Source of the DNA: Metallumcola ferriviriculae
Lineage (GTDB): Bacteria; Bacillota; JADQBR01
Direction of reading: 5' to 3'
NCBI RefSeq assembly: GCF_035573695.1
Contig: NZ_CP121694.1
Span: 2,766,501-2,830,500, forward strand
Length of the DNA: 64,000 nt
Shown here piece by piece: positions 228 to 62,075 of the stretch (within the stretch, counting starts at the first letter, position 1; every line of letters begins with the position of its first letter). The position numbers were made by a program, and so were the translations under genes. The notes beneath the pieces are model-generated. The model was not told the DNA's origin. It worked only from the letters and a program-made list of their open reading frames with translations, and did not search any database.

Positions 228-397
228 TAAACGAGGTTTCCTCCCCAAAATCGATGTAACGCAAATAATATGCAAGTATTGTTCCAAAGCAGTATTATGA
301 GATTTAAGGCGTTTAATGGTACCTTGCAAGATAATTCTATTGCAGAACTGCAACGGCGATGCAAATTTGCAAATGAAAGGCCACCCTTGCCTGCTTA

Positions 398-1814: not shown

Positions 1815-1939
1815 CCGAAAACCCCCTATGCATCTCCACATGTATATAGATAAGCAAATTATGTACCAATGGTGGAAATGCCTTGGCAACAAGAAAAAGC
1901 CGTTTTTGGCAAGCGGCTCTCGATGCACTTTCGCATCAC

Positions 1940-2362: not shown

Positions 2363-3808
2363 TTATTTTTTATCAATTCCGGCTAACTTTCTGGCTAAAG
2401 CGGTCTTATGCTGCAAATTGCCTTGGCGGAGAATCATTACTCGCTGAGCCTGGGGTGAGCCCGCACCGTGCATACTCTCTGCCAGAGCTGTGCCGCCGGT
2501 CATATTCTCCACCAACCGAGCCATTCGCACTCTTTCTTCAGTAGTGTATTTGCAAGAGCCCCGGAAATACTTCTCCAAATATGCTGCGGTATCTTCATTA
2601 TTGAAATCCCGCTCCGATGGCAGGGTACCGATAAATCCGCCGGCGACATCATGGGACAGACGGCAGATTTCATAGATGAGCCGGGTAACATTTTGTTTGA
2701 CTACATTGGCCAGCAGTGGGTTAACCAGGTAACCGCCCGACGCGGTCTTATGCCCGTCGGCAGAACAGGCGATAGAGCCGCCGTAAAGGGTCTCGGTAAG
2801 ATGGATCATTTCGGTAATCTTATCCTTAACATGGGATGCCTTGGCAACGCCGTTATATTCGGCCATTTGCGCAGTGGCACCGGTGATAACGTCACTGACG
2901 CCTCCCTTACAGCCACCGTAATTCTGGCGGTGGTAGCATGCAAACCTTTCTACCATCATACCGGCAAACTGGGCCTCACCGCACATGAATACTCTCTCCC
3001 AGGGCACAAAGACGTTATCCAGAATAGTCAGTGATTCACCGCCGACAATGCCGTACTGAATATTCCCCTGGTCGATAACTCCTTCTAAACGCCGACTGTC
3101 GTTGGTCTGGCGGCCAAAAATATGCACAACTCCCTCGGCATCCACGGGAATGGCACAGGCAATGGCGTAATCCTTATCTTCCTCACCTAATGCCACGGTG
3201 GGCATAATCAGCATTTCATGGGAATTAACCATGCCCGTCTGGTGGGCTTTGGCACCGCGAAGCACCACTCCCTTTTCATTTCGCTCCACCACGTGCACAT
3301 ATTGGTCAGGGTCTTCTTGCTGGTGGGGTTTCTTACCCCGGTCCCCCTTAGTGTCAGTCATGCTGCCTGCCACCATGTAGTCATTTTCCTGGATGTATTT
3401 TAAGTAGTCAGTAAAACGCTGATGATAATCGGTACCTAACTCCTGGTCCATCTCATAGGTTGTCGAATAGACGGCATTAATCCCATCAAAGCCGACGCAC
3501 CGCTGAAAGCAGCTCCCTGTCTGCTGAGCAATCATCCTCAGCATCTTCACTTTTTTAATTAAATCATCGGTGCTTTGGTGGATATGGGTAAAACGGTTAA
3601 TCTTTTTCCCGGTAAGATGGGACGTGGTGGTCATCAAGTCCTCGTAGTCCGGCCGATGGGCCAGTTCGTACGTCAATGATGCGGCATTGACGTGAGGTGC
3701 CAAATGTACAGACTCTGTCACGTCGTCAATTTTCTCCCCGTAAGCATATACCGTCGGATTCAACCTCTTCAAACTTTCAATATACTCTATTCCCGTTTTC
3801 AAATCCAT
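2363..3808 (-). CDS. abfD: 4-hydroxybutyryl-CoA dehydratase
   Basis: Radical-type [4Fe-4S]/FAD enzyme that dehydrates 4-hydroxybutyryl-CoA and isomerises vinylacetyl-CoA to crotonyl-CoA. The 481-residue product belongs to the HpaB (4-hydroxyphenylacetate 3-hydroxylase) superfamily but carries the dehydratase-specific cluster ligands. These are Cys100 and Cys104 in SCFQRCVG, and His293 and Cys300 in CYHRQNYGGCKGGV, matching Cys99/103, His292 and Cys299 of the Clostridium aminobutyricum enzyme. HIHQSTDDLIKKVKM, GAKAHQTG and SMHGAGSPQAQR are also typical. The start is the ATG 3808-3806 after AGAGGGG; the open frame upstream lacks any signal. A -24/-12 promoter ends about 30 bases upstream. Confidence 0.95.
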   Translation of the reverse strand: MDLKTGIEYIESLKRLNPTVYAYGEKIDDVTESVHLAPHVNAASLTYELAHRPDYEDLMTTTSHLTGKKINRFTHIHQSTDDLIKKVKMLRMIAQQTGSCFQRCVGFDGINAVYSTTYEMDQELGTDYHQRFTDYLKYIQENDYMVAGSMTDTKGDRGKKPHQQEDPDQYVHVVERNEKGVVLRGAKAHQTGMVNSHEMLIMPTVALGEEDKDYAIACAIPVDAEGVVHIFGRQTNDSRRLEGVIDQGNIQYGIVGGESLTILDNVFVPWERVFMCGEAQFAGMMVERFACYHRQNYGGCKGGVSDVITGATAQMAEYNGVAKASHVKDKITEMIHLTETLYGGSIACSADGHKTASGGYLVNPLLANVVKQNVTRLIYEICRLSHDVAGGFIGTLPSERDFNNEDTAAYLEKYFRGSCKYTTEERVRMARLVENMTGGTALAESMHGAGSPQAQRVMILRQGNLQHKTALARKLAGIDKK

Positions 3809-3837: not shown

Positions 3838-3853
3838 TGCAAATATTTAGCCA
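3838..3853 (-). promoter_or_regulatory. sigma-54 promoter of abfD
   Basis: On the minus strand the sequence reads TGGCTAAATATTTGCA. It has the invariant GG and GC pairs ten bases apart and a good -12 TTGCA, but TA instead of AC after the -24 GGC. Predicted transcription would start near 3826, leaving a leader of about 18 bases that contains the abfD ribosome binding site. Confidence 0.65.
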
Positions 3854-3975
3854 ACTAGTACAACCCCCGTAACGGTGGGGTTTTGCAGTCCGCTCGTTAC
3901 CGGAAGGGCCAGTTTCGGTGTAAATATGCACCATAATGATTCCCTGAGGGCTACCAGCATAATCTTATTCATTTT

Positions 3976-27813: not shown

Positions 27814-28221
27814 TCAATTGTTTTCCTTCTTATCAAAACGATAATAAGTACCGCTGGCATAAGCTACCAGTTTTTCCTGATCCTCGTCGTAACAGCGGGC
27901 ATCAGCCACGATTAAAGTACGGCCCAGTTTGATCAACTCCGCTTCCGCCCGCAGACCACTTCCGGTGGCAGGGCGCAAATAATTAACCTTTAGTTCCACT
28001 GTATTGGCTCCCTGGTCAGGACCGATTTGCTGATTAACTAATACGGCAATTGCCGAATCCAATGCCGAAGCAATGACACCACCGTGTACTTGGCCGTACA
28101 CCTGTCGGTGCTTTTCCGACACAGACACTCGAACCATGGCGCTGCCGTCCCCCTTATAATCAATTTTCATGTCAATTAATTTCCAAAATGACCCCTCTGC
28201 CAAATCATTTAATCTAACCAT
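27814..28221 (-). CDS. PaaI-family hot-dog thioesterase
   Basis: 135 residues. The hot-dog signature VYGQVHGGVIASALDSAIAV is present, with ELKVNYLRPATGSGLRAEAE and a C-terminal beta strand VAYASGTYYRF. Such enzymes hydrolyse acyl- or aryl-CoA thioesters (phenylacetate and benzoate-type CoAs in known cases), which fits the CoA-ester catabolism in this window. The ATG at 28221 lies 6 bases after GGGAGG; an upstream in-frame TTG is too close. Confidence 0.9.
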   Translation of the reverse strand: MVRLNDLAEGSFWKLIDMKIDYKGDGSAMVRVSVSEKHRQVYGQVHGGVIASALDSAIAVLVNQQIGPDQGANTVELKVNYLRPATGSGLRAEAELIKLGRTLIVADARCYDEDQEKLVAYASGTYYRFDKKENN

Positions 28222-28444
28222 AACCAACCTCCCATAATTTCCTATATTTACTTACTTTCGACATGAAGCGAGCTTTTCCTGTAAAGAAAACATGGCATGC
28301 ACCAATCCCCACCCCCGTCGCAGCGCAAGACTTGGCAGCTTGCTGCCTTAGTCGAGCGGCGTGCCCTTTACGGGTGCAGCGCAAGACTTGGCAGCTTGCT
28401 GGTCCCCGACCGTGACTAATCGCCTCAATATTATCTGAATATTG
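28222..28444. repeat. intergenic region with a 26-bp direct repeat
   Basis: GCAGCGCAAGACTTGGCAGC followed by TTGCTG occurs exactly at 28320-28345 and 28376-28401, 56 bases apart. Each copy holds a small dyad (GCAAG...CTTGC). Composition is more GC-rich than neighbouring spacers. An open frame covers it but has no family resemblance and no ribosome binding site. Confidence 0.7.
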
Positions 28445-28489
28445 AATAACTTGACAAAAAGGTGCCTGACACCATTTTGTCAAGTTATT
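28445..28489 (-). repeat. REP-like palindrome, copy 8
   Basis: Full 45-bp copy. Its end provides the TAA stop codon (28485-28487) of the crotonase-family gene. Confidence 0.92.
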
Positions 28490-29312
28490 TGCCTTGGAAG
28501 TTAGGGTCTCTCTTTTCGAAGAAGGCGTTGACGGCTTCTTTATGGTCTGCTGAGCCGGAGACGATGGCCATGTGGGATGAAATCATGTCTAAGGCGGTAC
28601 GCATATCGGTATTGAGGCTGGAATAGACGGCCCGCTTAATCATACGGACGGCCAGCTGGGGGCCTTTGGCAAGTCGCTCAGCGTAGGCCTTTACTTCTTC
28701 GTCGAAGCTTCCATGAGAAAAAACTTTGGTTACCAAACCTAAGCGCAGGGCTTCGTCGGCCTTGACGATGTCGCCGAACCAAAGCATCTCCAGGGCCTTG
28801 GGAAGCCCGACCAGACGAGGTAAAAAGTATGCGCCGCCATCACCGGGAACCAAGCCCATCTTAACATAGGATTCACCCATAATGGCCTTATCGGATACTA
28901 CTCTAATGTCGCACATCAAGGCCATATCCAGTCCGGCACCCATAGCCGGGCCATTGATAGCGCAAATTACCGGCTTGTCAATACCTTCTAGGGTATACGC
29001 TACCCGATGGACAATCTTCATGAGACTGTCTTTTCGCTGCGTAGCAATAGTAGGACCGTCCGGGTCCAGGGCAATGCCGGCAATAAAACCTTCACCCTTT
29101 TCCATTACCGCTACATCGCCGCCGGCGCAAAATGCCTTACCACTGCCTGTGATTACTATTACATTAACCGTATCATCGTCCCTGGCCTCTTCCAGGTAAT
29201 TAACCCAGCCTTTGAGCAGGTCGTCACTGAAGGTATTAAACTGTTCGGGACGATTCAGGGTAATGGTGGCCACGCTGTCTTCTACACTATAAAGTATGTC
29301 ATTAAAATTCAT
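28485..29312 (-). CDS. enoyl-CoA hydratase/isomerase (crotonase) family protein
   Basis: 275 residues. ATITLNRPEQFNTFSDDLL, SGKAFCAGGDVAVMEKG (first oxyanion-hole segment), AINGPAMGAGLDMALMCDIR (second) and MGLVPGDGGAYFLPRLVGLP are diagnostic. The two glutamates of classical enoyl-CoA hydratase (one in GGGCE, one in QPE) are replaced by Asp (GAGLD) and Tyr (GESYV), so simple crotonyl-CoA hydration cannot be assumed; an isomerase or a specialised hydratase is possible. It follows the glutaconyl-CoA decarboxylase genes, separated by a terminator. The ATG at 29312 has AAGGAAAG upstream; the longer open frame lacks signals. Its stop codon lies in a dispersed palindrome. Confidence 0.88.
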   Translation of the reverse strand: MNFNDILYSVEDSVATITLNRPEQFNTFSDDLLKGWVNYLEEARDDDTVNVIVITGSGKAFCAGGDVAVMEKGEGFIAGIALDPDGPTIATQRKDSLMKIVHRVAYTLEGIDKPVICAINGPAMGAGLDMALMCDIRVVSDKAIMGESYVKMGLVPGDGGAYFLPRLVGLPKALEMLWFGDIVKADEALRLGLVTKVFSHGSFDEEVKAYAERLAKGPQLAVRMIKRAVYSSLNTDMRTALDMISSHMAIVSGSADHKEAVNAFFEKRDPNFQGK

Positions 29313-29451
29313 TCTTTCCTTCTCACCCCTTTTATTATAATTATCATGCTCTTTGCGAAACAAAGCAATACCGTTTAGTTCGCTTTCAGTTAAACCGCGA
29401 ATACTTATCATTGAACACCGGATATTCCCTACCTACGGTGACACCGAAACA

Positions 29452-29497
29452 GCCGAAAAAAGAAATAACCCCACAATGCGGACAATGGGGGTTACTT
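29452..29497 (-). terminator. terminator of the glutaryl-CoA/glutaconyl-CoA operon
   Basis: GTAACCCCC and GGGGTTAT (minus strand) pair around a loop containing ATTGTCCGCATT, followed by TTTCTTTTTTC. It starts about 30 bases beyond the gcdA stop. Confidence 0.75.
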
Positions 29498-29527
29498 CGC
29501 AGCCTGTGTTATTATTTCTTAAATTAT

Positions 29528-31285
29528 TTATCCTCTGATAGTCCTCGGTAAAATCATTTGATGTACCGGGGTAATTGACTTGGGATTCTGATAGCTTGCT
29601 TCGCTAAAAGCAAGACAGTAATTTCTCAGTAACGGCAGTGAGACAATTTCATCGATAAACCCGCGCTGAGCGCAGAAAATGGGGCGGGATTTATCATAGT
29701 AACTCTGCACCATCTGATTCATTTTTTCAATCACCGGTTCCAAATCTCTGCCTGCATCTTGTTCTTTGACAAGTCTGCGTGAATAAGCTGCCGCTGCGGC
29801 GGTTTCGCCATGCATCACGTAAATCTCGGTCAGCGGCGTGCCGATGGTGAAGGCATTGTTTTCATTGGCCTGAGGTCCGCCTAGGACATAATGAGCCGCG
29901 GCTGAACCTTTTCTCAACATGATACACATCATCGGCAGATCGGTCTTTTCAATAGAATAGATTACGCTCTGCCCTAAAGCCAATAATTCTGCTTCCTCAG
30001 ACGGGTCGCCCACATCAATGCCGGTAGTATCCTGCAGCCAGATAATGGGTAAATTATCCCTGCCGCAGAAGGTGACAAACTCATTCATCTTTATGAGGCC
30101 CTGACGGTAGAGCTTACCGCCAACCCCTGTGGCATCTTCGCCTCGGTATTCGGGGTAATTTTTGAAGAAGCCCTGTCTGTTACCAATCACACCCACCGGG
30201 AATCCGCCTATTTTGGCTACACCGGTAAATACTTCCGGACCATAGTCAGGCCTATATTCCATGAATTCACTGTTATCAGTCAATCTGGCCAATACTTCGA
30301 TAGAGTCGTACACTCGCTTTTGATTAATGGGCAGGATATAATTCAGCTCGTCGCCGGGGAATTTTGGCTCTACCGGTTCGGCAACCTGGAAAAACCGTGG
30401 GGCGTAAGCCGGAATACCTTTCATATAATCCTTGATCCCATCCAGTACTCCCTGCTCGGTCTCATGCACTTCTCTAAAATAGGCAGTATGGTCAAAATGA
30501 GTTTCCACCCGGCCCGGGGCCTTGGCTTTAAAGTTTTTTGTTGCCTCAATTAACCCTTGGACCCCTTCCAGGTCAAAGTGACCTTTAGGGCTCATACCAC
30601 CGACAATACCGGCACCGCCAACAGCTATATTGGCACCCTCATGGGCCAATAAAATGGTGGGACTGATGCCTTGATAACCGCCGCCGGCCGGATTAGTACC
30701 ATAAATAGCGTTTAGTACGGGAATGCCCAGCTTGTTCAATTCGGCATGCCTAAAGAAAGGTGTACCGCTGCCTCTGCGGTTTGGATAGATGTCTTCCTGC
30801 TCCGGCAGTTTCACACCGCTGCAGTTAGTAATCCATACCAGTGGAATGTTCAACCTTTTGGCCATGTCTGTGACCCTGAGAATGTTTTCCGACTGTCCGG
30901 CAATCCAAGCTCCGGCAATAACCTTGTTATCAAAGCCAATGATTACCGCCCATTTGCCCTCAATCTTACCCAGACCGTCTACTACCGCAGTACAGCCCTC
31001 TTCATTATCTGCTGGATTAAAAAAGGTGTGCAAAGGACACCATGTGCCTTCGTCAACCAAATATTCTATTCTATCATAGACTGTCATTTGGCCGCGCGCC
31101 CTGACCTTTTCTGCAGGCTTACCGGCTTCTTCCACCTTTTTTACCGCTTCAGCAATCAGGTCTTCCTGTTCTTTTATGTCAGCAAGGTTTCTCTTACCCA
31201 TACTTAAATCTCTTTTAGTTAACTCTTTGCCGATGTCCGGCATCTTTTCAAAATAAGGCCTTAACGGTTTTTGTTTTCTAGCCAT
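29528..31285 (-). CDS. gcdA: glutaconyl-CoA decarboxylase alpha subunit (carboxyltransferase)
   Basis: 585 residues, the length of Acidaminococcus GcdA. Two crotonase-like carboxyltransferase halves are seen: SGTPFFRHAELNKLGIPVLN, YGTNPAGGGYQGISPTILLA and IAVGGAGIVGGMSPKGHFDL in the first; FTGVAKIGGFPVGVIGNRQG, PIIWLQDTTGIDVGDPSEEA and MLRKGSAAAHYVLGGPQANE in the second. It moves the carboxyl group from glutaconyl-CoA to biotin on GcdC, giving crotonyl-CoA. The start ATG 31285 lies 8 bases after AAGGAG. Co-oriented downstream of the acyl-CoA dehydrogenase with a 30-base gap; last gene before the terminator. Confidence 0.95.
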   Translation of the reverse strand: MARKQKPLRPYFEKMPDIGKELTKRDLSMGKRNLADIKEQEDLIAEAVKKVEEAGKPAEKVRARGQMTVYDRIEYLVDEGTWCPLHTFFNPADNEEGCTAVVDGLGKIEGKWAVIIGFDNKVIAGAWIAGQSENILRVTDMAKRLNIPLVWITNCSGVKLPEQEDIYPNRRGSGTPFFRHAELNKLGIPVLNAIYGTNPAGGGYQGISPTILLAHEGANIAVGGAGIVGGMSPKGHFDLEGVQGLIEATKNFKAKAPGRVETHFDHTAYFREVHETEQGVLDGIKDYMKGIPAYAPRFFQVAEPVEPKFPGDELNYILPINQKRVYDSIEVLARLTDNSEFMEYRPDYGPEVFTGVAKIGGFPVGVIGNRQGFFKNYPEYRGEDATGVGGKLYRQGLIKMNEFVTFCGRDNLPIIWLQDTTGIDVGDPSEEAELLALGQSVIYSIEKTDLPMMCIMLRKGSAAAHYVLGGPQANENNAFTIGTPLTEIYVMHGETAAAAAYSRRLVKEQDAGRDLEPVIEKMNQMVQSYYDKSRPIFCAQRGFIDEIVSLPLLRNYCLAFSEASYQNPKSITPVHQMILPRTIRG

Positions 31286-31315
31286 AACACTCACTCCTTT
31301 GTGAAACTTGGCTAA

Positions 31316-32473
31316 TTACCTGTTAGGGGCATCTCCTAAAGCAATACCGGCAATTATCAGCTTCTGAATGTTGCTGGTTCCTTCTACGGTCTGCAGTGAC
31401 TTTGAGTCCCTCAAGAATCTTTCTGCCGGGTATTCAGTGGAAAAACCATAAGAACCAAAGATCTTCATGCACTCATTGGCGGCATGAACAGCAGCCTCAG
31501 CGGCATAATACTTGGCAATGGACGTTTCATATTGATTGGGCAGGCCTTGATCCTTTAACCAAGCAGCACGGTATACCAACAGCTGAGTAGCGTGATGTTC
31601 GGCATCCATTTCTGCAATTTGAGCCTGAATCATTTGATAGCTGCCGATTTTTTTGCCAAACTGAGTACGCTCATTGGCGTATTGAATGGAAGCTTCTACA
31701 CAAGCGGCACTGATACCTAAACCACCGGCGGCACAGCCGATACGAGTATTATTCAACTGCCACATACAAATTTTGAAACCGTCGCCTACTTTCCCTAAGA
31801 CACTGTCTTTGGGAATTTTAGCGCCATCGAAGGCTATTTCTCCGGTGGGAGCACAATACAAGCCGGCCTTGGTTTCGATACCGTTGGTTTCCACACCTTC
31901 CGTATTCTTTAAGTCAATAATAAAGCAGGTAAGACCTTTGTATTTTGCATCTTTATCAGTAACAGCATACAAAAGGCCATAGTCACCAAAGTGAGCGTTG
32001 GAAATCCACATTTTCTGGCCGTTTATTTCCCAGTGATCACCTTTGTCAGTGGCAGTAGTTTTCATACTGGCCACGTCAGAACCGGTGTTGGGTTCAGTAA
32101 TGGCAAAGAAACCAATCTTCTCGCCGCTTACCCAGCCGGGAATATACTTTTGCTTTTGCTCATCGGTGCCGAACTTATTCACAGTCAGCGACGGGCCAAT
32201 GTTCTGCATGTTAAAGGGCAGACGCCAAGAAGCGCTAACTTTGGCCACCTGTTCTGCCATAATTACGGATTCCAAGAGACCCATGCCGTTTCCGCCGTAT
32301 TCTTCGGGGATGCCGCAGCCAAAAAAGCCCAGCTCGCCCATCTTTTTCACCAATTCCGGGCGGAAGCGGTGATTTGCCTCATCTTCCTCCAATGTTGGCA
32401 AAATTTCATTTTCAGCAAACTTTTTCGCCATATCCTGAACCATTTGTTGTTCTTCTGTTAATCCAAAAAACAT
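31316..32473 (-). CDS. acyl-CoA dehydrogenase, probably non-decarboxylating glutaryl-CoA dehydrogenase
   Basis: 385 residues, FAD-dependent. Seen: GCGIPEEYGGNGMGLLESVI, FFAITEPNTGSDVASMKTTA, NGQKMWISNAHFGDYGLLYA, ERTQFGKKIGSYQMIQAQIA and the C-terminal FGSYGFSTEYPAERFLRDSK then QTVEGTSNIQKLI with the catalytic Glu. Placement inside the glutaconyl-CoA decarboxylase operon, between the biotin carrier and the alpha subunit, argues that it oxidises glutaryl-CoA to glutaconyl-CoA without decarboxylating it, as in anaerobic benzoate degraders such as Desulfococcus. Electrons would go to an ETF not seen here. GGGAGGGGAG precedes the ATG. Confidence 0.9.
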   Translation of the reverse strand: MFFGLTEEQQMVQDMAKKFAENEILPTLEEDEANHRFRPELVKKMGELGFFGCGIPEEYGGNGMGLLESVIMAEQVAKVSASWRLPFNMQNIGPSLTVNKFGTDEQKQKYIPGWVSGEKIGFFAITEPNTGSDVASMKTTATDKGDHWEINGQKMWISNAHFGDYGLLYAVTDKDAKYKGLTCFIIDLKNTEGVETNGIETKAGLYCAPTGEIAFDGAKIPKDSVLGKVGDGFKICMWQLNNTRIGCAAGGLGISAACVEASIQYANERTQFGKKIGSYQMIQAQIAEMDAEHHATQLLVYRAAWLKDQGLPNQYETSIAKYYAAEAAVHAANECMKIFGSYGFSTEYPAERFLRDSKSLQTVEGTSNIQKLIIAGIALGDAPNR

Positions 32474-32513
32474 AATTTCTCCCCTCCCAAGGGTTTAGAA
32501 TGTTTTGCTGATT

Positions 32514-32726
32514 TTACTCAACGTCACAGATTACATCTTCTTCATTAATGGTATCTCCGGCAGATAATTTTAAATTTTTGATGGTACCTGCGTCAGTAGC
32601 AAATACCGGGGTTTCCATTTTCATCGCCTCAAGTACCAATACCACATCGTCCACTTCCACAGTGTCCCCGTCCTTCACGCTAACCTCTACAACTTTTCCT
32701 TCCATTGGAGCCAATAGCTTTGCCAT
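32514..32726 (-). CDS. gcdC: biotin carrier subunit of glutaconyl-CoA decarboxylase
   Basis: 70 residues: a bare biotinyl domain with the biotinylated lysine in VLVLEAMKMETPV (about residue 36) and GTIKNLKLSAGDTI after it. It lacks the long Ala/Pro linker that GcdC has in Acidaminococcus. It shuttles CO2 between GcdA and the membrane subunit GcdB. AAGGAGG stands 9 bases before the ATG. Confidence 0.95.
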   Translation of the reverse strand: MAKLLAPMEGKVVEVSVKDGDTVEVDDVVLVLEAMKMETPVFATDAGTIKNLKLSAGDTINEEDVICDVE

Positions 32727-32788
32727 AATAAATTACCTCCTTAAAATATTTGGTTTGTAAACCTTTTAATGCCTTAATAGAATGCTCA

Positions 32789-33907
32789 TTATTGTAACAG
32801 GGAAATAAATATCCCCGCAGCAACCACCGTTCCAATCACACCGGCCACATTTGGACCCATGGCAAACATCATCAGATAGTTTTGCTTGTTCGCTTCAGAA
32901 CCTACCTTATGCACTACCCGGGCAGCCATGGGTACGGCAGATACACCGGCAGCACCGATAAGCGGGTTGATTTTTTGCTTAAGAAACAAGTTCATAAACT
33001 TCGCCAACAGTAAGCCGGAAGTGGTGCTGATGGCAAAAGCAAACAATCCTAAGAAGAAAATAAATATCACCTTGGGCTGCAGGAAGTTTGCCGCGGTCAT
33101 GGTAGCACCGACGGAAAGCCCCAAAAAGATAGTGATAATGTTCATCAATTCGTTTTGCGCCGCATCAGTTAAGCGCTTGACCACACCGGCTTCTTTAAAG
33201 AGATTACCCATCATAAACATGGCCATAAGCGCCGCAGACGCCGGCACAAGCAGTACAATTATCACTGTAGTAACAATGGGAAAAAGAATTTTTTCTAGCT
33301 TACTCACCGGACGTAAACGCACCATCTTTATTTTGCGCTCTGCTTCAGTGGTGAAAAGTTTCATAATGGGCGGCTGAATTACCGGCACCAGCGCCATGTA
33401 CGAGTATGCGGCCACTGCCACTGCACCGATCATACCCGGCGCAAGCTTAGAACCGAGATAAATAGTGGTGGGTCCGTCAGCACCACCGATGATACCAATG
33501 GTTGCCGCTTCGTTGACACTAAAACCCAAAAACAATGCGGCGAAAAAGGTGAGATAAACGCCAACCTGAGCACCGGCACCCAGAAGCAGCGTCTTGGGAT
33601 TGGCGATAACCGGCCCAAAGTCCGTCAGTGCGCCCAATCCCAAGAAAATCAACGGCGGGATTACCTCCCAATCAATGCCGTAATGATAAAAACGCCAGAT
33701 AAGTCCATGACCCTCTTGCATTAAATTAGCCACCGGAATATTGGTTATCAAAATGCCAAAAGCAATGGGCAGCAGTAGTAAAGGTTCGTACTCCTTTTTG
33801 ATGGCAAAATAAAAAAGTATTCCCGCTATAATCCACATGATCAGATGTTTATATGTCAGCTCCGGCAAGCCGCTGGTTAAAATTATTTGCTGTATACTGT
33901 CAATCAT
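32789..33907 (-). CDS. gcdB: glutaconyl-CoA decarboxylase beta subunit (Na+ pump)
   Basis: 372 residues, integral membrane, OadB/MmdB/GcdB family. Motifs: EVIPPLIFLGLGALTDFGPV, TIGIIGGADGPTTIYLGSKL (the conserved Asp region for Na+ coupling), SVGATMTAANFLQPKVIF, and AAGVSAVPMAARVVHKVGSE followed by MFAMGPNVAGVIG. It decarboxylates carboxybiotin and exports Na+. GGAGG lies upstream of the ATG. Energy conservation by decarboxylation fits syntrophic or fermentative life. Confidence 0.96.
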   Translation of the reverse strand: MIDSIQQIILTSGLPELTYKHLIMWIIAGILFYFAIKKEYEPLLLLPIAFGILITNIPVANLMQEGHGLIWRFYHYGIDWEVIPPLIFLGLGALTDFGPVIANPKTLLLGAGAQVGVYLTFFAALFLGFSVNEAATIGIIGGADGPTTIYLGSKLAPGMIGAVAVAAYSYMALVPVIQPPIMKLFTTEAERKIKMVRLRPVSKLEKILFPIVTTVIIVLLVPASAALMAMFMMGNLFKEAGVVKRLTDAAQNELMNIITIFLGLSVGATMTAANFLQPKVIFIFFLGLFAFAISTTSGLLLAKFMNLFLKQKINPLIGAAGVSAVPMAARVVHKVGSEANKQNYLMMFAMGPNVAGVIGTVVAAGIFISLLQ

Positions 33908-33923
33908 TCCTCATTCCTCCGTC

Positions 33924-34085
33924 CTATGATGCTTGTGATTTCTTTTCTTCTGCTTTTGTACTGCTCTCAATCAATTTGACTACCCGGTATGTTACAGCAA
34001 TAGATATCTGCAGCACCACCATCACCATAAATACTCCGGCGATACCGCTAAAAAATACTTTAACGGCCAAATTCCAATCTGTCAT
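33924..34085 (-). CDS. OadG-like small membrane subunit (probable delta subunit)
   Basis: 53 residues from the ATG 34085: one hydrophobic helix (FFSGIAGVFMVMVVLQISIA) followed by a charged tail with AEEKKSQAS, the layout of OadG/MmdD/GcdD anchor subunits that hold the decarboxylase complex on the membrane. GGGGAG is 3 bases before the ATG. A GTG seven codons upstream, at 34106, is adjacent to AAAGGAG but has no spacing. Its start overlaps the small ORF at 34060-34179 in another frame. Confidence 0.8.
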   Translation of the reverse strand: MTDWNLAVKVFFSGIAGVFMVMVVLQISIAVTYRVVKLIESSTKAEEKKSQAS

Positions 34086-34179
34086 AGGCTCCCCTGACGG
34101 GTTCACCTCCTTTTAGTAAGCTTTTGAATAAGGCATCGCACATAAATCTTGAGCACTTGTGCTTGCAAAACATCGACAT
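34060..34179 (-). CDS. 39-residue Cys-containing small ORF leading the gcd operon
   Basis: Reads MSMFCKHKCSRFMCDALFKS then LLKGGEPVRGAYDRLEFGR. AGAGGAGAG lies 8 bases before the ATG (34179), and the start is about 12 bases after the predicted start site of the sigma-54 promoter, so it would be the first ribosome stop on the transcript. Cys5, Cys9 and Cys14 plus His7 could bind metal. It overlaps the first nine codons of the OadG-like gene in a different frame, suggesting translational coupling. No family recognised; it could be a leader peptide or a small subunit. Confidence 0.5.
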   Translation of the reverse strand: MSMFCKHKCSRFMCDALFKSLLKGGEPVRGAYDRLEFGR

Positions 34180-34201: not shown

Positions 34202-34217
34202 AGCAAGAAAAGTGCCA
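34202..34217 (-). promoter_or_regulatory. sigma-54 promoter of the glutaryl-CoA/glutaconyl-CoA operon
   Basis: Minus strand TGGCACTTTTCTTGCT: perfect -24 TGGCAC and -12 TTGC at the right spacing. The upstream gene encodes a sigma-54 activator on the same strand. Predicted start near 34191. Confidence 0.88.
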
Positions 34218-34247
34218 GCGGAAAAATCCGCTGGCTTTTTTTGAGAA
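34213..34247 (-). terminator. hairpin downstream of the sigma-54 activator gene, overlapping the -24 element
   Basis: GCCAGCGGA and TCCGCTGGC form a 9-bp stem with a short A/T loop. On the plus strand it is followed by seven T. On the minus strand its 3' arm forms the GGC of the -24 box. It may end leftward readthrough from the activator gene or rightward antisense transcripts. Confidence 0.6.
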
Positions 34248-34348
34248 ATAGTATATTTGTCAAGCTGTTAGGGCTATCAGTGAGCAGTAATGCATCAGTA
34301 GTCAATGTCATTCCTCATGCAAACTTTCAGTACATTTTCCTGGCTCAA

Positions 34349-34362
34349 TGCGATTTTGCATC
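34349..34362 (-). promoter_or_regulatory. candidate upstream activator site (gcd operon)
   Basis: TGCGATTTTGCATC, about 135 bases upstream of the sigma-54 promoter. It matches 13 of 14 positions with TGCAATTTTGCATC at 40635-40648, about 100 bases upstream of the next sigma-54 promoter. Distance and recurrence suit an enhancer-binding protein site. Confidence 0.5.
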
Positions 34363-34502: not shown

Positions 34503-36620
34503 TTAAGAATTCACGTTAAGATCTATCCCAAATTCGTCTTTAATACGGTTTATCTTTCTTACAATGGTGGATTGATTTACACCCAGGGCTTGAGCCGCTT
34601 TGTAAGTGCTGCCGTATTCCTTTAAAGCCTGGCTCAGCAGCTGCTTTTCCAGTTCCAGCATCGCATCCTTCAGCGGCATTATACCGGAAAGATTCAGCCC
34701 GGGGCTGCCGTTTCGGCCCTTCACCTGCAGATGCTCCGGCAGTTCCTCGACAGTAATTGTCTGAAATCGGCTGGTGACCACCAGGCGTTCAATGATGTTT
34801 TCCAATTCACGAATATTTCCCGGCCAATCATAATGCCAAAAACAATCAGTGACTTCCGGCGAAAGCTGCCTTTCCAAACCGTATACCTCGCAGAAATGAT
34901 TCTTAAATTTCTTGACCAGCGGAACTATTTCTTCTTTACGTTCCCTCAGCGGCGGGATGTTGATGGGAATTACATTCAGCCGAAAGTATAAATCCTCCCG
35001 AAATTCACCCTTTTGTCTCATTTCTTCTAGATTTTGATTGGTGGCGGCGACAATACGCACATTTATCAGGCGCGGCTGCTGCCCGCCCACCCGGTAAATC
35101 TCACGGTCTTGGATGGCCCGCAATAACTTTACCTGCAGGGACAGGGGTAAATCGCCGATTTCATCCAGCAGCAGTGTCCCGTTATGAGCTAATTCAAATA
35201 AACCCAGCTTGCCATCACGGCTTGCACCGGTAAAGGCACCAGGCTCATAGCCAAACAACTCGGACTCCAACAGGTTTTCGGGTATGGCGCCGCAATTCAC
35301 CTTAATGAAGGGGCCCTGTTCGCGTTTGCTGTTAGCATGGATAACCTTGGCGACAATTTCCTTACCCACGCCGGATTCACCTAAAAGAAGCACTGTAGAA
35401 TCCACCTGGGCCACACGCAGCACCAGGTCCAGGACCTTTTTCATCTTAGCGGAATGCACCACTATACCCTTTTCTTCCATCAGTTGATTACGCAGTTCAT
35501 TAAGTTCCGAATGATAGCGGCGGGTGAGTTCCTCGCTTTGCTCTAATTGACTGCGCAGTTCATTTAACTCCGTCAAATCCCGCACATTGATGACAACCCG
35601 GGTAAGCTCTTCTTTTTTATCTAGCACCGGATTGCCGGTCAACAACAGCTGGCTGCCGGCACGTTCTACCACAGTGGACTGCCGTTTCTTGCTGGTAGTT
35701 ACCGCTGCCACAATAGTGGTAGATATATTATCTACTGCCTTATCCAACGGCTGGTCCAAGATATCTTTGGCATCAATACCCATGACTCGCTCAAATGCGC
35801 CGTTAACCCGATGAACCACACCTTCAGCATCGGCCACCAGAATACCGTCATAAGAAGCGTCAATAATGGTGCGCAATTCTTCGTTCAACTGCTTCACTGA
35901 ATTGAGTTCATTAGAAATAGCTTCTATTTCCGAAATATCCTGAAAAACACCCACAGCACCGATTATTTCTCCATTTGCGAAAATCGGTGTTCGGTGAGTC
36001 ATGTAGGTACGAATGTGATTGGCATATTCCACCGTAAATTTATGGGCCAACTGTACCTCTCCGGTTTCCAATATATCCAACAAGCCCTGGGGGATAATTA
36101 CCTGGGAAAGATGCCTGCCAAGGGCATCCTTCTTTTTCCGCCAGATAATTTCCTCCGCTGCCCGGTTATATACGGTTACTACCCCTTCTTTATTAATGCC
36201 AATAATGCCGTTATGGGCAAATTCCAGGACATTCTCGAGCTGATCGGCCCTTTTTTTAATACTTCTAAATAAACTGCCGCCGATTTGGTCCTTGGTGACT
36301 ATGCTCCAAGGCATGGCCTGACTATCCATTACTACCAGGTAATATGTCGGCAGCTCCCACAACGAATCCAAGGAGGCATCATCGGAAATACTTAAAAAGT
36401 CTTCGGACATAACCCCGGCCACCGGCGTATTGGCCAGCAGGCGGTTAGCGGCAGCTCCTCGCAGAACCTCTAAAGATACAACCCCGCGAATTTTCTGCTG
36501 CTCATCCAATACCGGCGCCATCGGAATCGCCGCTGCCTCCAACTTTTTCAAAGCACTTGCAACCACTGCATCTTCTTCTATTACCACACATCTCTTGTTA
36601 CAAATCTGACGCACCAACAT
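34503..36620 (-). CDS. sigma-54-dependent activator with CBS pair and two PAS domains
   Basis: 705 residues. Order: a CBS pair (about 1-115; VRQICNKRCVVIEEDAVVAS, IRGVVSLEVLRGAAANRLL), PAS (about 125-230; ENVLEFAHNGIIGINKEGVV), PAS (about 250-350; TIIDASYDGILVADAEGVVH), AAA+ (LLLGESGVGKEIVAKVIHAN, GAFTGAS sigma-54 contact loop, LLDEIGDLPLSLQVKLLRAI) and a Fis-type HTH (STYKAAQALGVNQSTIVRKI). It activates sigma-54 promoters, most likely the gcd operon immediately downstream. CBS domains may sense adenine nucleotides or CoA-type ligands. The ATG 36620 follows GAGGAGGAG. Confidence 0.95.
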   Translation of the reverse strand: MLVRQICNKRCVVIEEDAVVASALKKLEAAAIPMAPVLDEQQKIRGVVSLEVLRGAAANRLLANTPVAGVMSEDFLSISDDASLDSLWELPTYYLVVMDSQAMPWSIVTKDQIGGSLFRSIKKRADQLENVLEFAHNGIIGINKEGVVTVYNRAAEEIIWRKKKDALGRHLSQVIIPQGLLDILETGEVQLAHKFTVEYANHIRTYMTHRTPIFANGEIIGAVGVFQDISEIEAISNELNSVKQLNEELRTIIDASYDGILVADAEGVVHRVNGAFERVMGIDAKDILDQPLDKAVDNISTTIVAAVTTSKKRQSTVVERAGSQLLLTGNPVLDKKEELTRVVINVRDLTELNELRSQLEQSEELTRRYHSELNELRNQLMEEKGIVVHSAKMKKVLDLVLRVAQVDSTVLLLGESGVGKEIVAKVIHANSKREQGPFIKVNCGAIPENLLESELFGYEPGAFTGASRDGKLGLFELAHNGTLLLDEIGDLPLSLQVKLLRAIQDREIYRVGGQQPRLINVRIVAATNQNLEEMRQKGEFREDLYFRLNVIPINIPPLRERKEEIVPLVKKFKNHFCEVYGLERQLSPEVTDCFWHYDWPGNIRELENIIERLVVTSRFQTITVEELPEHLQVKGRNGSPGLNLSGIMPLKDAMLELEKQLLSQALKEYGSTYKAAQALGVNQSTIVRKINRIKDEFGIDLNVNS

Positions 36621-36762
36621 AGTACTCCTCCTCAAGAGACAAACCTATCCTTCCAAGTATTATTCTAGAAAACCGAGGTATTCCCTCTTAATTAGCGTTG
36701 GAAAAGAACGCCACGGCTAAAAAGCCTGCTCTATTACGTGGACAGTCCCCTCGGTTGTGGCC

Positions 36763-40522: not shown

Positions 40523-40538
40523 TGCAACTATTGTGCCA
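40523..40538 (-). promoter_or_regulatory. sigma-54 promoter of the acyl-CoA synthetase-CoA transferase operon
   Basis: Minus strand TGGCACAATAGTTGCA: full match to the -24/-12 consensus. The predicted transcript begins near 40511, which supports the TTG start at 40481. Confidence 0.88.
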
Positions 40539-40634
40539 GCACCCTCAAGCCTCTTAAACCCCTTAGTTTGTGGGATAAAGCCGCCTGTTTCACTGCCTAT
40601 TACTGCGTCTACGCGTATTTGACAATATCTTCAC

Positions 40635-40648
40635 TGCAATTTTGCATC
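40635..40648 (-). promoter_or_regulatory. candidate upstream activator site (acyl-CoA synthetase operon)
   Basis: TGCAATTTTGCATC, one base different from the site at 34349-34362 and about 100 bases upstream of the sigma-54 promoter. Confidence 0.5.
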
Positions 40649-42523: not shown

Positions 42524-42539
42524 TGCAAAATATTTGCCA
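42524..42539 (-). promoter_or_regulatory. sigma-54 promoter of the permease gene
   Basis: Minus strand TGGCAAATATTTTGCA: -24 TGGCA and -12 TTGCA at correct spacing. The leader to the start codon would be about 275 bases, longer than at the other operons, so confidence is lower. Confidence 0.6.
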
Positions 42540-42695
42540 ATTGAGGCAATTGACAGGTAATATAATTTTTCACAAGCTGATTATACTACCCCGTTGAGCA
42601 CTGTCTTTTCGGGCATTTAGACTTATATTCGCTGAAGAAAGGTAAATTCCTGTTCCGCTATGTAGAAATTTGTCGAAATTTTTGGTATTTTGTAG

Positions 42696-46382: not shown

Positions 46383-46414
46383 ATTGTCAACTCCAATCTA
46401 AAACAAAGCCTGTT

Positions 46415-47257: not shown

Positions 47258-47297
47258 GCTATCCCTCCTTGTTTAAATAAATTCCATAAATATGACT

Positions 47298-51918: not shown

Positions 51919-51934
51919 TGCAATACCCGTGCCA
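51919..51934 (-). promoter_or_regulatory. sigma-54 promoter of the liv-hydrolase operon
   Basis: Minus strand TGGCACGGGTATTGCA: exact consensus TGGCACG and TTGCA with a four-base gap. The predicted start near 51908 leaves a 26-base leader with the livK ribosome binding site. Confidence 0.92.
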
Positions 51935-52013
51935 TTTGAGTAAGGTAATTTTCCCTGTAATATAGCTTTTTAATCACTATTTTTAGAATAATTTGAGTCA
52001 TTTTGAATTCTTG

Positions 52014-56111: not shown

Positions 56112-56464
56112 TGTTTCACCTCCTTTACATTACGAATATAATGGTTGGTTGAATAAGACGCAGTTTGCTTTTCTTGGCAATAGCTGCGCCATCCACCTAC
56201 CCTTTTAAGCTCTTGCAAGTTATATGCCATTTCTACAGTATCCTACAGGCATCTAGGAAAAAAAGAGGCCAGCAAAATCCGGCCATATTTAAATTTAAAA
56301 TTTTCTAAACCAACTGGCTTTAACAGATGAGGAAATTACATAATTAGCTTTTTTTACAATCTCCTCAAAAAATATCCAGCGGCAGCATTGCTATCCGTAT
56401 GCTTTTTAACCAAAGTTTAGCGTTCAGGCAATATTAATACCTATTGAATTGCTAAATTTTTCCT
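56112..56464. other. intergenic with weak hairpin
   Basis: No gene supported. A GGCC/GGCC hairpin at 56268-56284 followed on the minus strand by TCTTTTTTT may be a weak terminator for glutamate dehydrogenase, about 180 bases beyond its stop. Confidence 0.4.
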
Positions 56465-57760
56465 CTAGGCCAAGCTAATCTTACGCTCTTTCTCCACTTT
56501 GGGCGCTTCTCCCAACCAGCCGCGCACTCGCATAGCCTCACTGACACGGGCAATGGCCACCATGTAAGCGGCGGTACGCATGTCGATATCTTTTCGACTT
56601 CTGTACATCTGATATACCTCGTCAAAAGCGCGTACCATCATGGCTTCTAACTTACCATTCACCTCTTCTTCGGTCCAGTAATAACCCATATTATTTTGTA
56701 CCCATTCAAAGTATGACACGGTCACACCACCGGCATTAGCTAATATATCAGGCAGAACCAGCACACCTTTATTGGTAAGTATTCTGTCTGCGCCGGGAGT
56801 GGTGGGACCATTGGCCGCCTCGCCGATTATTTTCGCCTTAACCTTGGGAGCAATTTCTTCAGTAATCTGGTTTTCCAGAGCAGCAGGGATCAGGATGTCA
56901 CAAGGCATTGTTAATAACTCAGCGTTGGTAATATGTCTGCTGCCGGGATAATGTGCGACGCTTCCGGTTTCCTTTTTATATTCCTCTAACTTTTGGGTGT
57001 TAAGTCCTTTAGAACTGTATGCCCCGCCTGTAGAGTCAACTACTGCAACGATCTTGCAGCCCAAGTCCTGAAGCAATTCAGCCACAATACTGCCTGCGTT
57101 GCCATAACCCTGCACTGCAACGGTAGCATCTTTTAGGTCGAGACCAATAGCTTTTGCCGCCTCACGTACTGTAAAGCTGCACCCTCTGGCAGTAGCCTCA
57201 TTGCGCCCGGCAGACCCGCCCACAATTAAAGGCTTACCGGTGATAACTCCGAATTCATTATGTCCCTTGTATTTGGAGAACTCATCCATCATCCAGGCCA
57301 TTACCTGAGCGTTAGTATAAACATCCGGGGCAGGCACGTCTTTTTCTGCTCCCAGGATAGGGGATACTGCTCGAATGTACTCCCGACTAAGCCGCTGTAT
57401 CTCCCGATCAGACATTTCCTTCGGATTACAGATTACCCCGCCTTTGGCACCGCCGTAGGGCAGACCTAGTACGGCACATTTAAAAGTCATCCACAATGCT
57501 AACGCCCTGACTTCATCCAGAGTAACGCCAGGATGAAAGCGAATGCCGCCTTTAAGAGGTCCCAAAGCATAGTTATGCTGCACGCGGTAACCGGTAAACA
57601 CTTTAACACTACCGTCATCCATCTCTACCGGTACGGCCACCGTAAGTTCCCGCACCGGTTGGCGTAAGATATCCAGCACCGTAGAAGATAAACCCAAAGT
57701 TTTAACTGCCAACCCTATTTGCTCTTGCGCTATTTGGTAACTGTTCAACTGTTTATTCAT
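56465..57760 (-). CDS. gdhA: glutamate dehydrogenase (Glu/Leu/Phe/Val family)
   Basis: 431 residues: GPLKGGIRFHPGVTLDEVRA, LALWMTFKCAVLGLPYGGAK then GGVICNP with the catalytic Lys, [20 protein letters not shown] (catalytic Asp), and the Rossmann segment ATVAVQGYGNAGSIVAELLQ. It interconverts glutamate and 2-oxoglutarate + NH3, recycling 2-oxoglutarate for the aminotransferases in this window. AAAGGAG stands 10 bases before the ATG. It has its own sigma-54 promoter, unusual for a GDH, pointing to a catabolic role. A 110-bp relic of a related gene lies at 36.8 kb. Confidence 0.95.
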   Translation of the reverse strand: MNKQLNSYQIAQEQIGLAVKTLGLSSTVLDILRQPVRELTVAVPVEMDDGSVKVFTGYRVQHNYALGPLKGGIRFHPGVTLDEVRALALWMTFKCAVLGLPYGGAKGGVICNPKEMSDREIQRLSREYIRAVSPILGAEKDVPAPDVYTNAQVMAWMMDEFSKYKGHNEFGVITGKPLIVGGSAGRNEATARGCSFTVREAAKAIGLDLKDATVAVQGYGNAGSIVAELLQDLGCKIVAVVDSTGGAYSSKGLNTQKLEEYKKETGSVAHYPGSRHITNAELLTMPCDILIPAALENQITEEIAPKVKAKIIGEAANGPTTPGADRILTNKGVLVLPDILANAGGVTVSYFEWVQNNMGYYWTEEEVNGKLEAMMVRAFDEVYQMYRSRKDIDMRTAAYMVAIARVSEAMRVRGWLGEAPKVEKERKISLA

Positions 57761-57816: not shown

Positions 57817-57832
57817 CGCAAAGTCTGTGCCA
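57817..57832 (-). promoter_or_regulatory. sigma-54 promoter of glutamate dehydrogenase
   Basis: Minus strand TGGCACAGACTTTGCG: perfect -24 and TTGC at -12. The leader would be about 45 bases. Confidence 0.88.
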
Positions 57833-57856
57833 AGTTATCAAAAATTTCGAAAATTA

Positions 57857-57887: not shown

Positions 57888-58102
57888 GCACCGTATTCTG
57901 TATTCAACTTTTAGCAGCTTTGTTTCAAAATGCTCCTGTGCATCTTTTTGTTTGCTTATTTATATGGCAGCCCGCTGTTATCCTTAGTCTCAACCTCCTA
58001 GTAATTAATGCAGCCTCCACTCGCCTTTCATGCGTTTGTACATCTTATTATCTATTCCCCTCAGGTCTTTTGCGGAGTCTGAAACTTTATTGCCTTTGCT
58101 TG
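57888..58102. other. intergenic, no supported gene
   Basis: Pyrimidine-rich on the plus strand. An open frame extends across it from inside gdhA but encodes a Leu/Cys-rich sequence with no signals. Nothing else seen. Confidence 0.4.
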
Positions 58103-60022: not shown

Positions 60023-60067
60023 AATAACTTGACAAAAAGGTGCCTGACACCATTTTGTCAAGTTATT
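60023..60067 (-). repeat. REP-like palindrome, copy 9
   Basis: Full 45-bp copy filling most of the gap between the sigma-54 activator and AOR genes; it supplies the TAA stop (60058-60060) of the activator. Confidence 0.92.
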
Positions 60068-61809
60068 TGGTTGGGGCGACGGCCCCGAGTTCTTTTTTCT
60101 TTGCCGATATATTTTTTCATTTTCCTCACCACAGTGGACTGATTGACATCAAGTATTTCCGCCATCTTGTAAGTATTGTTGTATCGGTCGAATGTCTTGG
60201 TTATTAACTGGCGCTCCAGTTCTTCTGTGGCTTCCTTCAGGGAACAAATGTCTAAAAGATATACCCGGTTGCTGACGCTGGTGCTGGTGTTGATAATGTA
60301 ATCGGGCAGGTGCTGGGGCTCGATGGTGCCGGCATCGATAGTTACCACCAATCGCTCAATGATGTTCTCCACTTCCCGGACATTTCCTTTCCACTGGCAG
60401 TTGGTCATCAGTTCCAGTGCTTCCGGAGACAATTTCTTATTAATTTCATACTTGGCGTTAAACCGGGCCAAGAAATGATGAATCAGAGGCGGAATGTCCT
60501 TACGCCGGTGGCGCAGGGGCGGTATCACTACCGGGATAACATTTAATCGATAATAAAGGTCTTCCCGAAAGGTTCCCTCTTTGACCATCTTTTGGATATC
60601 TCGATTGGTCGCGGCAATGAGGCGGATATCCACAGAAATGCCGTCGGCAGCACCTACCCGCATTACTTCTCTTTCCTGGATAACCCGCAGCAGCTTTACC
60701 TGCAGGTTGAGCGGCAGCTCTGCTACCTCATCAAGAAGCAAGGTGCCACCGTTGGCCATCTCGATCAAGCCTTTTTTTCCTTCTTTCCGTGCCCCGGTAA
60801 AAGCACCAGGCTCATAACCAAAAAGTTCTGACTCCAACAGATTTTCCGGAATAGCGCCACAGTTGATGGTAATAAACGGTCCCTCAATGCGCGGGCTCAT
60901 GTCGTGAATGCGTTTGGCCACCACTCCTTTACCCACGCCTGATTCGCCCATGAGCAGCACAGTAGATTCTACATGGGCAACTCGGCTGATCAACTCCAGT
61001 ATCTGCTTCATCTGCTCGCTTTCAGCTACCACTGTCAGAGAACGGTTTTGTTTGTCCTTCATCTGGATTATCTGATTGCGGTAGGTTTCCGCCAGCCGCT
61101 CGGTATCCTGAAGCTTCTGCCGCAGATTAGTGAGCTCGGTGACATCCCGGGAATTGACCACCACCCGGATAATCTCCCCATTATCATCAAAGACCGGGTT
61201 TGCGGTAACTATCAACTGTTTGCCGGCTTTGGTCTTTTGAGGGATAGTGATACGCCGCTTTTCCTTCAAAACCATGCTGACAACGGAGGGGCTGAAATAA
61301 CCCTGTTTTTCCAAATCACCAACATTTTTGCCCACCATCTCTTCGGTTTTGACGCCGTAATAGCTTTCTCCCATCTTATTAATGCGGGTAGTGTATCCCC
61401 GACCATCGGTAACAAAAATCTCATCATACGAGGCATCAAATACTGCTTCCAGCTCATTTTTTAAAGACCTGACCTGCGTCAGTTCCTGGGATAAAGACTC
61501 CAAATCGGTGATATCTTGAAATACCGACACTGCACCGGCTATTTTGCCAGCGCCATCATAAACCGGGGTTCGATTTACCACCAGAGTTCGATTATCTATT
61601 ACCTGTTCCTGGCTCACTTGAGACTCCCGGGTGGCCAGAACCTGAATCAAATCGCTGTCCGGCAGCACTTCATCAATGCGACAGCCTACCACACCTTCTC
61701 GATCTATGCCCAGAAGGTGCTGCGCGGTTAGATTAAGGTATTTTATCCGACCCTGGGTATCAATCATCAGTATGCCGTTATGAATGGAGTCTAGTAGTGC
61801 CTGCTGCAT
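60058..61809 (-). CDS. sigma-54-dependent activator with two PAS domains
   Basis: 583 residues. PAS 1 (about 1-115: ALLDSIHNGILMIDTQGRIK), PAS 2 (about 120-235: AVFDASYDEIFVTDGRGYTT, VVNSRDVTELTNLRQKLQD), AAA+ (about 255-490: LLMGESGVGKGVVAKRIHDM, GAFTGARKEGKKGLIEMANG, LRVIQEREVMRVGAADGISV) and Fis-type HTH (TYKMAEILDVNQSTVVRKMK) with a basic tail KEKRTRGRRPNQIT. The ATG 61809 is chosen because ACAGGAGG stands 6-7 bases upstream; the frame is open 55 codons further. It likely controls AOR, gdhA and/or the amino-acid permease and aminotransferase around it. Confidence 0.95.
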   Translation of the reverse strand: MQQALLDSIHNGILMIDTQGRIKYLNLTAQHLLGIDREGVVGCRIDEVLPDSDLIQVLATRESQVSQEQVIDNRTLVVNRTPVYDGAGKIAGAVSVFQDITDLESLSQELTQVRSLKNELEAVFDASYDEIFVTDGRGYTTRINKMGESYYGVKTEEMVGKNVGDLEKQGYFSPSVVSMVLKEKRRITIPQKTKAGKQLIVTANPVFDDNGEIIRVVVNSRDVTELTNLRQKLQDTERLAETYRNQIIQMKDKQNRSLTVVAESEQMKQILELISRVAHVESTVLLMGESGVGKGVVAKRIHDMSPRIEGPFITINCGAIPENLLESELFGYEPGAFTGARKEGKKGLIEMANGGTLLLDEVAELPLNLQVKLLRVIQEREVMRVGAADGISVDIRLIAATNRDIQKMVKEGTFREDLYYRLNVIPVVIPPLRHRRKDIPPLIHHFLARFNAKYEINKKLSPEALELMTNCQWKGNVREVENIIERLVVTIDAGTIEPQHLPDYIINTSTSVSNRVYLLDICSLKEATEELERQLITKTFDRYNNTYKMAEILDVNQSTVVRKMKKYIGKEKRTRGRRPNQIT

Positions 61810-62075
61810 TTTTTGCCTCCTGTCACGGGCCTCTCTGCCCCGATATTCCCATCCGAATGCTTGACTGCATTTAATCGTCAGCCGAAGCCGTTGCTGCCAT
61901 TTTTCCAATCTAGGCGCCGCTGCGCATTTGAAGGACAAATGCACACTTAATTTATTATCCATGCGCCAACGCATCCAACTAGCAAAGAGAAGTGGGAGTA
62001 TAGAACTCCCAAATAATGCGGCTAGGCAATAATTATCGGCTAAATGTTTAACTAATTACTATTACTAGACTATTA

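Follow-up and report, generated by a model that had tools for sequence, protein, structure and literature searches.

The gcd, acs-caiB, gdhA, abfD, liv and permease operons in the window (the whole 64-kb stretch of Metallumcola ferriviriculae DNA analysed here) are very likely driven by RNA polymerase carrying sigma-54 together with neighbouring PAS-type enhancer-binding proteins (EBPs), of which EBP1 and EBP3 would act through a candidate box, ATGC-N6-GCAT, with other activators serving the liv and permease promoters. Sigma-54 control had been proposed in an earlier note on this DNA and is strongly supported by a sequence-based case that combines rpoN, a genome-wide excess of sites, conservation, and an EBP gene immediately upstream of many promoters. 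Sites, genes, conservation and box statistics were read directly from the sequence.

A pattern scan of the window recovered all six −24/−12 sites that the earlier note had listed, each on the minus strand. Four match TGGCAC-N5-TTGC exactly (34203, 40524, 51920 and 57818, before gcd, acs, liv and gdhA, respectively), the permease site at 42525 (TGGCAAATATTTTGC) has one mismatch, and the abfD site at 3839 (TGGCTAAATATTTGC) has two. Scoring used a literature-style sigma-54 matrix (maximum 20.9), and comparisons were made between this genome (G000) and its relatives: G001 (JADQBR01, Soudan_17) and G002 (JACDOG01, GB_MAG15_131) of the same family, the more distant G004, plus G035 and contig L139. 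The promoters and the genes they precede are listed below.

2363..3808, minus strand: abfD, 4-hydroxybutyryl-CoA dehydratase (best PDB match 1u8v, 609 bits)
3838..3854, minus strand: weak sigma-54 promoter of abfD, TTGGCTAAATATTTGCA, score 12.2, with a strong counterpart (17.3) at the G001 homologue
27814..34085, minus strand: gcd operon (Pfam/NCBIfam)
34202..34218, minus strand: sigma-54 promoter of the gcd operon, CTGGCACTTTTCTTGCT, exact consensus, score 17.9, with equivalents in G001, G004 and L139
37034..40481, minus strand: acs (NDP-forming acyl-CoA synthetase, TTG start at 40481) and caiB (class III CoA-transferase)
40523..40539, minus strand: sigma-54 promoter of acs-caiB, CTGGCACAATAGTTGCA, exact consensus, score 19.1, conserved in G001, G002 and G004
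42524..42540, minus strand: probable sigma-54 promoter before a DcuC-like permease gene (40831-42234), one mismatch, score 16.1
51919..51935, minus strand: sigma-54 promoter of the liv ABC-transporter/amidase/M20 peptidase cluster (43832-51882), exact consensus, score 18.0, without ATGC-N6-GCAT
56465..57760, minus strand: gdhA, glutamate dehydrogenase
57817..57833, minus strand: sigma-54 promoter of gdhA, TTGGCACAGACTTTGCG, exact consensus, score 17.5, conserved in G001, G002 and G004

Matches with up to two mismatches are not enriched in the window (74 versus 68 ± 9 in shuffles), so a site must be strong to count as evidence by itself; scanning the window alone at two mismatches was dropped as uninformative, its count being at the shuffle level. 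At a matrix score of at least 14, the window holds nine sites; changing the spacer by +1, −1 or +2 leaves one in each case, and mirroring the matrix leaves three. This confirms GG and GC elements at −24/−12 spacing, with altered-spacer controls near background. One of the nine, at 32819, lies inside the gcdB coding sequence and was discarded. Three similarly strong sites had been absent from the earlier note:

271..287, minus strand: additional sigma-54-like site before an MFS permease gene, score 15.0
1853..1869, minus strand: additional sigma-54 site found with the matrix, TTGGTACATAATTTGCT, before a 95-aa ORF (1527-1814), with a box at 1923-1936
56214..56230, minus strand: additional sigma-54 site before a PNPOx-like gene (55638-56111), score 16.8

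The 95-aa ORF, which has its own sigma-54 site and box, encodes a Cys-containing product without a Pfam match and lies between abfD and a 3-hydroxyacyl-CoA dehydrogenase gene. Elsewhere in the window, a 777-aa ORF (20388-22721) has no Pfam match at E ≤ 1.

The six promoters are uneven in strength: the gcd, acs, liv and gdhA sites bear out the earlier description, whereas the permease and abfD sites, taken alone, are weaker than it implied. Likewise, the short leaders with a ribosome binding site that it described occur at abfD, acs, liv and gdhA, but the leaders are long at permease (~280 nt) and gcd (~105 nt). Taken alone, the abfD site is at noise level; it gains support from a strong counterpart in G001, where the start of the nearest abfD homologue (70% identical) is preceded at an equal distance by TTGGCATTAAATTTGCT (score 17.3), and from a site scoring 15.3 at a second abfD copy just left of the window. 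The AbfD alignment to 1u8v spans 45-520, is full-length and retains the Cys/His positions of 1u8v, which we take to be the cluster ligands. The permease site is the weakest case; two permease copies in G002 (77% and 71% identical, one of them within the acs-caiB operon) have no site directly upstream. The permease itself (467 aa) matches DcuC below threshold.

The machinery required for such promoters is encoded in the genome. The 3.72-Mb genome has one copy of rpoN, a single open frame of 478 aa, on whose presence the earlier proposal had depended, and 28 strong EBP ATPase domains. Genome-wide statistics, which come from pattern searches and selected stretches of the genome, also show an excess of sites: TGGCAC-N5-TTGC occurs exactly 19 times, compared with once for the reversed pattern and six times with a 6-base spacer. 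The exact sites are mostly situated in short gaps preceding genes of acid and amino-acid metabolism, including those for a Leu/Val-type dehydrogenase, acyl-CoA dehydrogenase, 3-hydroxyacyl-CoA dehydrogenase, enoyl-CoA hydratase, CoA-transferase, TRAP transporter, acyl-CoA ligase, GABA transaminase and iron alcohol dehydrogenase (named by eye from sequence, apart from the transaminase, whose score exceeds the TIGR00700 cut-off). Among 25 EBP genes parsed, 15 are followed on their own strand, within 500 bp, by a site scoring at least 14, so the order activator, promoter, operon is general in this genome, and the series 34503, 34202, gcd is one case of it.

Conservation in relatives points in the same direction. 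The neighbourhood comprising aminotransferase, amino-acid permease, EBP3, AOR, gdhA, acs (with caiB and permease), EBP1, ECH/gcdH and gcdA is kept in G001, G002 and G004, and partly in G035, with varying gene order and some members missing. Within it, the upstream site scores in G000, G001, G002 and G004 are 17.5, 18.0, 19.0 and 16.7 for gdhA and 19.1, 16.5, 18.6 and 16.6 for acs; the gcd site, located just after the activator gene, scores 17.9, 17.3, 17.8 and 18.5 in G000, G001, G004 and L139, and the aminotransferase site scores 17.3-17.8 in G000, G002, G004 and G035 and 13.4 in G001. Among 89 gene upstream regions in 155 kb of DNA from relatives, 14 reach at least 15, the next scores 13.4, and most of the rest fall below 10. 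A second gdhA copy of G001 has no sigma-54 site. The liv site is strong, but as judged from these sequences it is without orthologous support.

Three activators lie among the operons, as had been noted, and all of them carry the GAFTGA loop:

34503..36635, minus strand: EBP1, CBS-PAS-PAS-AAA(GAFTGA)-HTH_50, with orthologues beside acs/gcdH in G001, G004 and L139
54101..55511, plus strand: EBP2, PAS-AAA(GAFTGA)-HTH
60058..61809, minus strand: EBP3, PAS-PAS-AAA(GAFTGA)-HTH_50, likely ATG at 61809

The domain architectures of the first and third confirm them as activators (CBS, two PAS, AAA and HTH; PAS, AAA and HTH). The second, placed at 54114 in the earlier note, stands as a PAS-AAA-HTH frame from ~54100, but no in-frame ATG, GTG or TTG start precedes its PAS region (54072-54402 searched). 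An ATT at 54101 follows a ribosome-binding-like run, AGGGGGG, and a nearby upstream ATG lies in another frame. EBP1 and EBP3 have the recognition-helix motif NQST(I/V)VRK in common, and that of EBP2 differs (TQSSLMRRL). EBP2 and liv form a divergent pair separated by an IS1182-type element; liv probably answers to EBP2, which is our best guess from this arrangement. The element, of the IS1182 family, extends over 52159-54061 between the liv promoter and EBP2 and has 18-bp terminal inverted repeats and a transposase gene at 52246-53904.

The shared helix of EBP1 and EBP3 is accompanied by a shared palindrome. ATGC-N6-GCAT, a probable enhancer (activator) box, lies 60-210 bp upstream of the gdhA, gcd, acs (one mismatch) and aminotransferase promoters, is often doubled, and is also carried by the promoter of the second abfD copy. 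The following instances occur in the window:

34348..34361, minus strand: probable enhancer box upstream of the gcd promoter, ATGCAAAATCGCAT
40634..40647, minus strand: one-mismatch candidate box upstream of acs, ATGCAAAATTGCAG
57930..57943, minus strand: candidate box upstream of gdhA, ATGCACAGGAGCAT
58030..58043, minus strand: second, one-mismatch candidate box upstream of gdhA, ATGTACAAACGCAT
61857..61870, minus strand: box ~50 bp before EBP3, ATGCAGTCAAGCAT, a putative autoregulatory site with a matching box in G001 and G002
61961..61974, minus strand: second box before EBP3, ATGCGTTGGCGCAT, 104 bp away from the other (the pairs of three genomes are 99-104 bp apart)

In the discovery set of gdhA, acs and gcd promoters, whose upstream regions in the relatives show the palindrome, the box is exact in 7 of 11 and present with at most one mismatch in 10 of 11. 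It ranks best among all 4-mer palindromes with spacers of 2-13, and 30 shuffles reach at most three promoters. A further promoter set has the exact box in 8 of 11, although this set is not fully blind, because the second abfD, 1853 and aminotransferase promoters of G000 were already known to carry it. The aminotransferase promoter has two boxes 21 bp apart in G000, G001, G002 and G004. The stretches from relatives contain 19 exact boxes, of which 11 precede a strong site by 30-330 bp (~0.8 expected). Genome-wide, 73 boxes were found versus roughly 57 expected from length alone, with no clear excess, so the box is informative only near these promoters and is unusable alone. Before EBP3, the pair in G000 is matched by four more of these 19 boxes, which form pairs 99-103 bp apart in G001 and G002, and the interval 61857-61974 has no sigma-54 site beside the paired boxes; autoregulation of EBP3 through this pair is probable.

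The title of the earlier note suggests one catabolic regulon, which would place the six operons under a single activator or signal. All six do fall within 64 kb and mostly share a strand, the ~150 kb around the window hold 10 of the 19 exact sites and 10 of the 28 EBPs, EBP1 and EBP3 share their helix motif, and a liv promoter of G001 carries the box. We nevertheless regard a single regulon as unlikely. The exact box is found in 0 of 10 other sigma-54 promoters of G000, including those of liv, permease and PNPOx in the window, and its absence from these three, set against its presence at gdhA, gcd, acs, aminotransferase and the second abfD, argues that they are not one regulon; EBP2 has a different recognition helix, and 65% of Clostridiales EBPs control a single operon (PMC6615313). 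No upstream activator site was identified for liv, permease or the window abfD, and the TGT-N10-12-ACA pattern was seen at 2 of the 10 other promoters of G000 scanned, neither of them in the window. Control by sigma-54 with more than one activator is the reading we retain.

The gcd operon requires separate consideration, since its −24 element doubles as the 3′ arm of a terminator-like hairpin. The features concerned, with gene assignments by Pfam/NCBIfam unless otherwise indicated, are as follows:

27814-28227, minus strand: thioesterase
28485-29411, minus strand: enoyl-CoA hydratase
29528-31294, minus strand: gcdA
31316-32473, minus strand: gcdH (best PDB match 3mpi, glutaryl-CoA dehydrogenase)
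32789-33907, minus strand: gcdB
33924-34085, minus strand: OAD-gamma-like gene (weak Pfam match)
34214..34235, minus strand: terminator-like hairpin, GCCAGCGG-ATTTTT-CCGCTGGC, −19.5 kcal/mol, z −5.4, with a T-rich tail

The position of the −24 element within a hairpin with a T-rich tail means that the hairpin may also end the EBP1 transcript. That the 34202 element serves solely in this way, with the sigma-54 match incidental, would agree with the stability of the hairpin and the T-rich stretch after it, but is very unlikely: G001, G004 and L139 each keep a strong site (17.3-18.5) at the corresponding position, after EBP1 and before the gcd genes, preceded at 100-140 bp by an exact box, and a purely terminator role was rejected because the relatives keep the promoter in place. 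These same-place sites argue that the gcd promoter is real. Its predicted +1 at ~34191 lies within a ribosome binding site, that of a 39-aa ORF. This ORF is therefore doubtful and is probably not translated from the gcd promoter; the first convincing gene of the operon is then the OAD-gamma-like ORF. The 39-aa ORF (34060-34179), between the promoter and the OAD-gamma-like gene, has the motif CKHKCSRFMC.

It is hardly credible that the sites as a whole are chance matches or by-products of coding or terminator sequence, with the genes read from sigma-A promoters, since the two-mismatch matches at shuffle frequency, the match inside gcdB, the overlap of the gcd site with the hairpin and the sigma-70-like sequences in the region (which leave room for constitutive promoters) are outweighed by exact sites that outnumber their control 19 to 1 and are positioned before genes, by EBP adjacency, by conservation at orthologous operons and by the linked boxes.

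The gene content suggests what sigma-54 control would serve. A GABA/5-aminovalerate-type transaminase gene lies at 63679-65004 in window numbering, crossing the right edge. GcdH scores 456 bits against the Desulfococcus-type model NF045552, just under the cut-off of 470; glutaryl-CoA dehydrogenase of the Desulfococcus type is non-decarboxylating, which fits a separate Na+-pump decarboxylase (GcdA, GcdB and the OAD-gamma-like protein). We infer that the transaminase, AOR, GDH, acs and CaiB, together with the gcd and abfD genes, fit a pathway that oxidises omega-amino acids, 4-hydroxybutyrate and glutarate to crotonyl-CoA, and EBP1 and EBP3 probably serve these crotonyl-CoA-forming pathways.

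In the mechanism proposed here, in which transcription starts, activator-box pairing, ligands and pathway substrate are deduced, RNA polymerase with sigma-54 would transcribe the operons from −24/−12 promoters and would need the PAS-type EBPs encoded among them. EBP1 (34503) and EBP3 (60058), which we infer to read ATGC-N6-GCAT, would most likely bind it 60-210 bp upstream and open the gcd, acs-caiB, gdhA and aminotransferase promoters by looping the DNA and hydrolysing ATP; EBP3 would probably also bind the two boxes before its own gene, resulting in self-regulation. Omega-amino acids (GABA or 5-aminovalerate), 4-hydroxybutyrate and glutarate would be converted to CoA esters and crotonyl-CoA; GDH would regenerate the amino acceptor in the omega-amino-acid route, and the Na+-pump decarboxylase would act at the step of glutaconyl-CoA. 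Other activators would control the liv and permease promoters, with EBP2 the best guess for liv. More tentatively, it is possible that EBP1 (CBS-PAS-PAS) and EBP3 (PAS-PAS), having the same helix motif, share one box and jointly control a conserved anaerobic route by which omega-amino acids, 4-hydroxybutyrate and glutarate reach crotonyl-CoA and which includes a Na+-pump decarboxylase, EBP3 being autoregulated by the box pair ~100 bp apart.

Several known systems offer comparisons. In Bacillus subtilis, the glutamate dehydrogenase gene rocG depends on SigL and RocR, with an enhancer downstream of the gene and RocR/AhrC as regulators. Both systems involve a catabolic GDH, sigma-54 and an enhancer-binding activator; unlike in rocG, the boxes here are upstream and a PAS-type EBP is encoded in the adjacent aminotransferase operon. 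The glutarate route of Pseudomonas putida is decarboxylating and aerobic. Its regulators CsiR and GcdR likewise control glutarate catabolism via glutaryl-CoA dehydrogenase, but they are of the GntR/LysR type (PMC6667623), not sigma-54 EBPs. In Clostridiales, sigma-54 systems as a rule have PAS-type activators encoded next to their targets, as exemplified by XanR-abfD, AorR-aor, CrbR and PrdR, and abfD has already been assigned to a Clostridium sigma-54 regulon (Nie et al. 2019, PMC6615313). The present system resembles those regulons in its single sigma-54, in its mostly PAS-type one-component EBPs adjoining their targets, in the control of amino-acid fermentation and crotonyl/butyryl-CoA metabolism (theirs list abfD and aor), and in upstream activator sites (UAS), which in Clostridiales lie mostly 100-250 bp upstream (PMC6615313). 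As in clostridial PAS-EBP systems, EBPs lie beside their targets and have PAS sensors, and the promoter and candidate UAS are conserved in orthologues. It differs from them in that a glutarate/glutaconyl-CoA Na+-pump operon, gdhA and an NDP-forming acyl-CoA synthetase gene are among its targets, and in its box, ATGC-N6-GCAT, apparently shared by two EBPs and unlike the TGT-N10-12-ACA class of UAS, which is itself not universal, occurring in 15 of 39 groups of Clostridiales EBPs (PMC6615313). Sigma-54 control of GDH, which the earlier note had called unusual, is not so: COG0334 is named as a main sigma-54-regulated group in Bacillota, as is, in Clostridia, COG2368, to which 4-hydroxybutyryl-CoA dehydratase belongs (PMC12316311). 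The open-licence literature searched yielded no report that glutarate or glutaconyl-CoA decarboxylase (Na+-pump) genes are under sigma-54 control, and the newly described candidate enhancer box is the most original part of the finding.

Taken at this strength, glutarate/glutaconyl-CoA (Na+-pump) and omega-amino-acid oxidation would join the processes controlled by sigma-54 activators in anaerobic Bacillota. A concrete candidate enhancer box is now defined, into which two different sensors may feed, and likely regulators are assigned to a conserved neighbourhood so far found in uncultured clostridial genomes.
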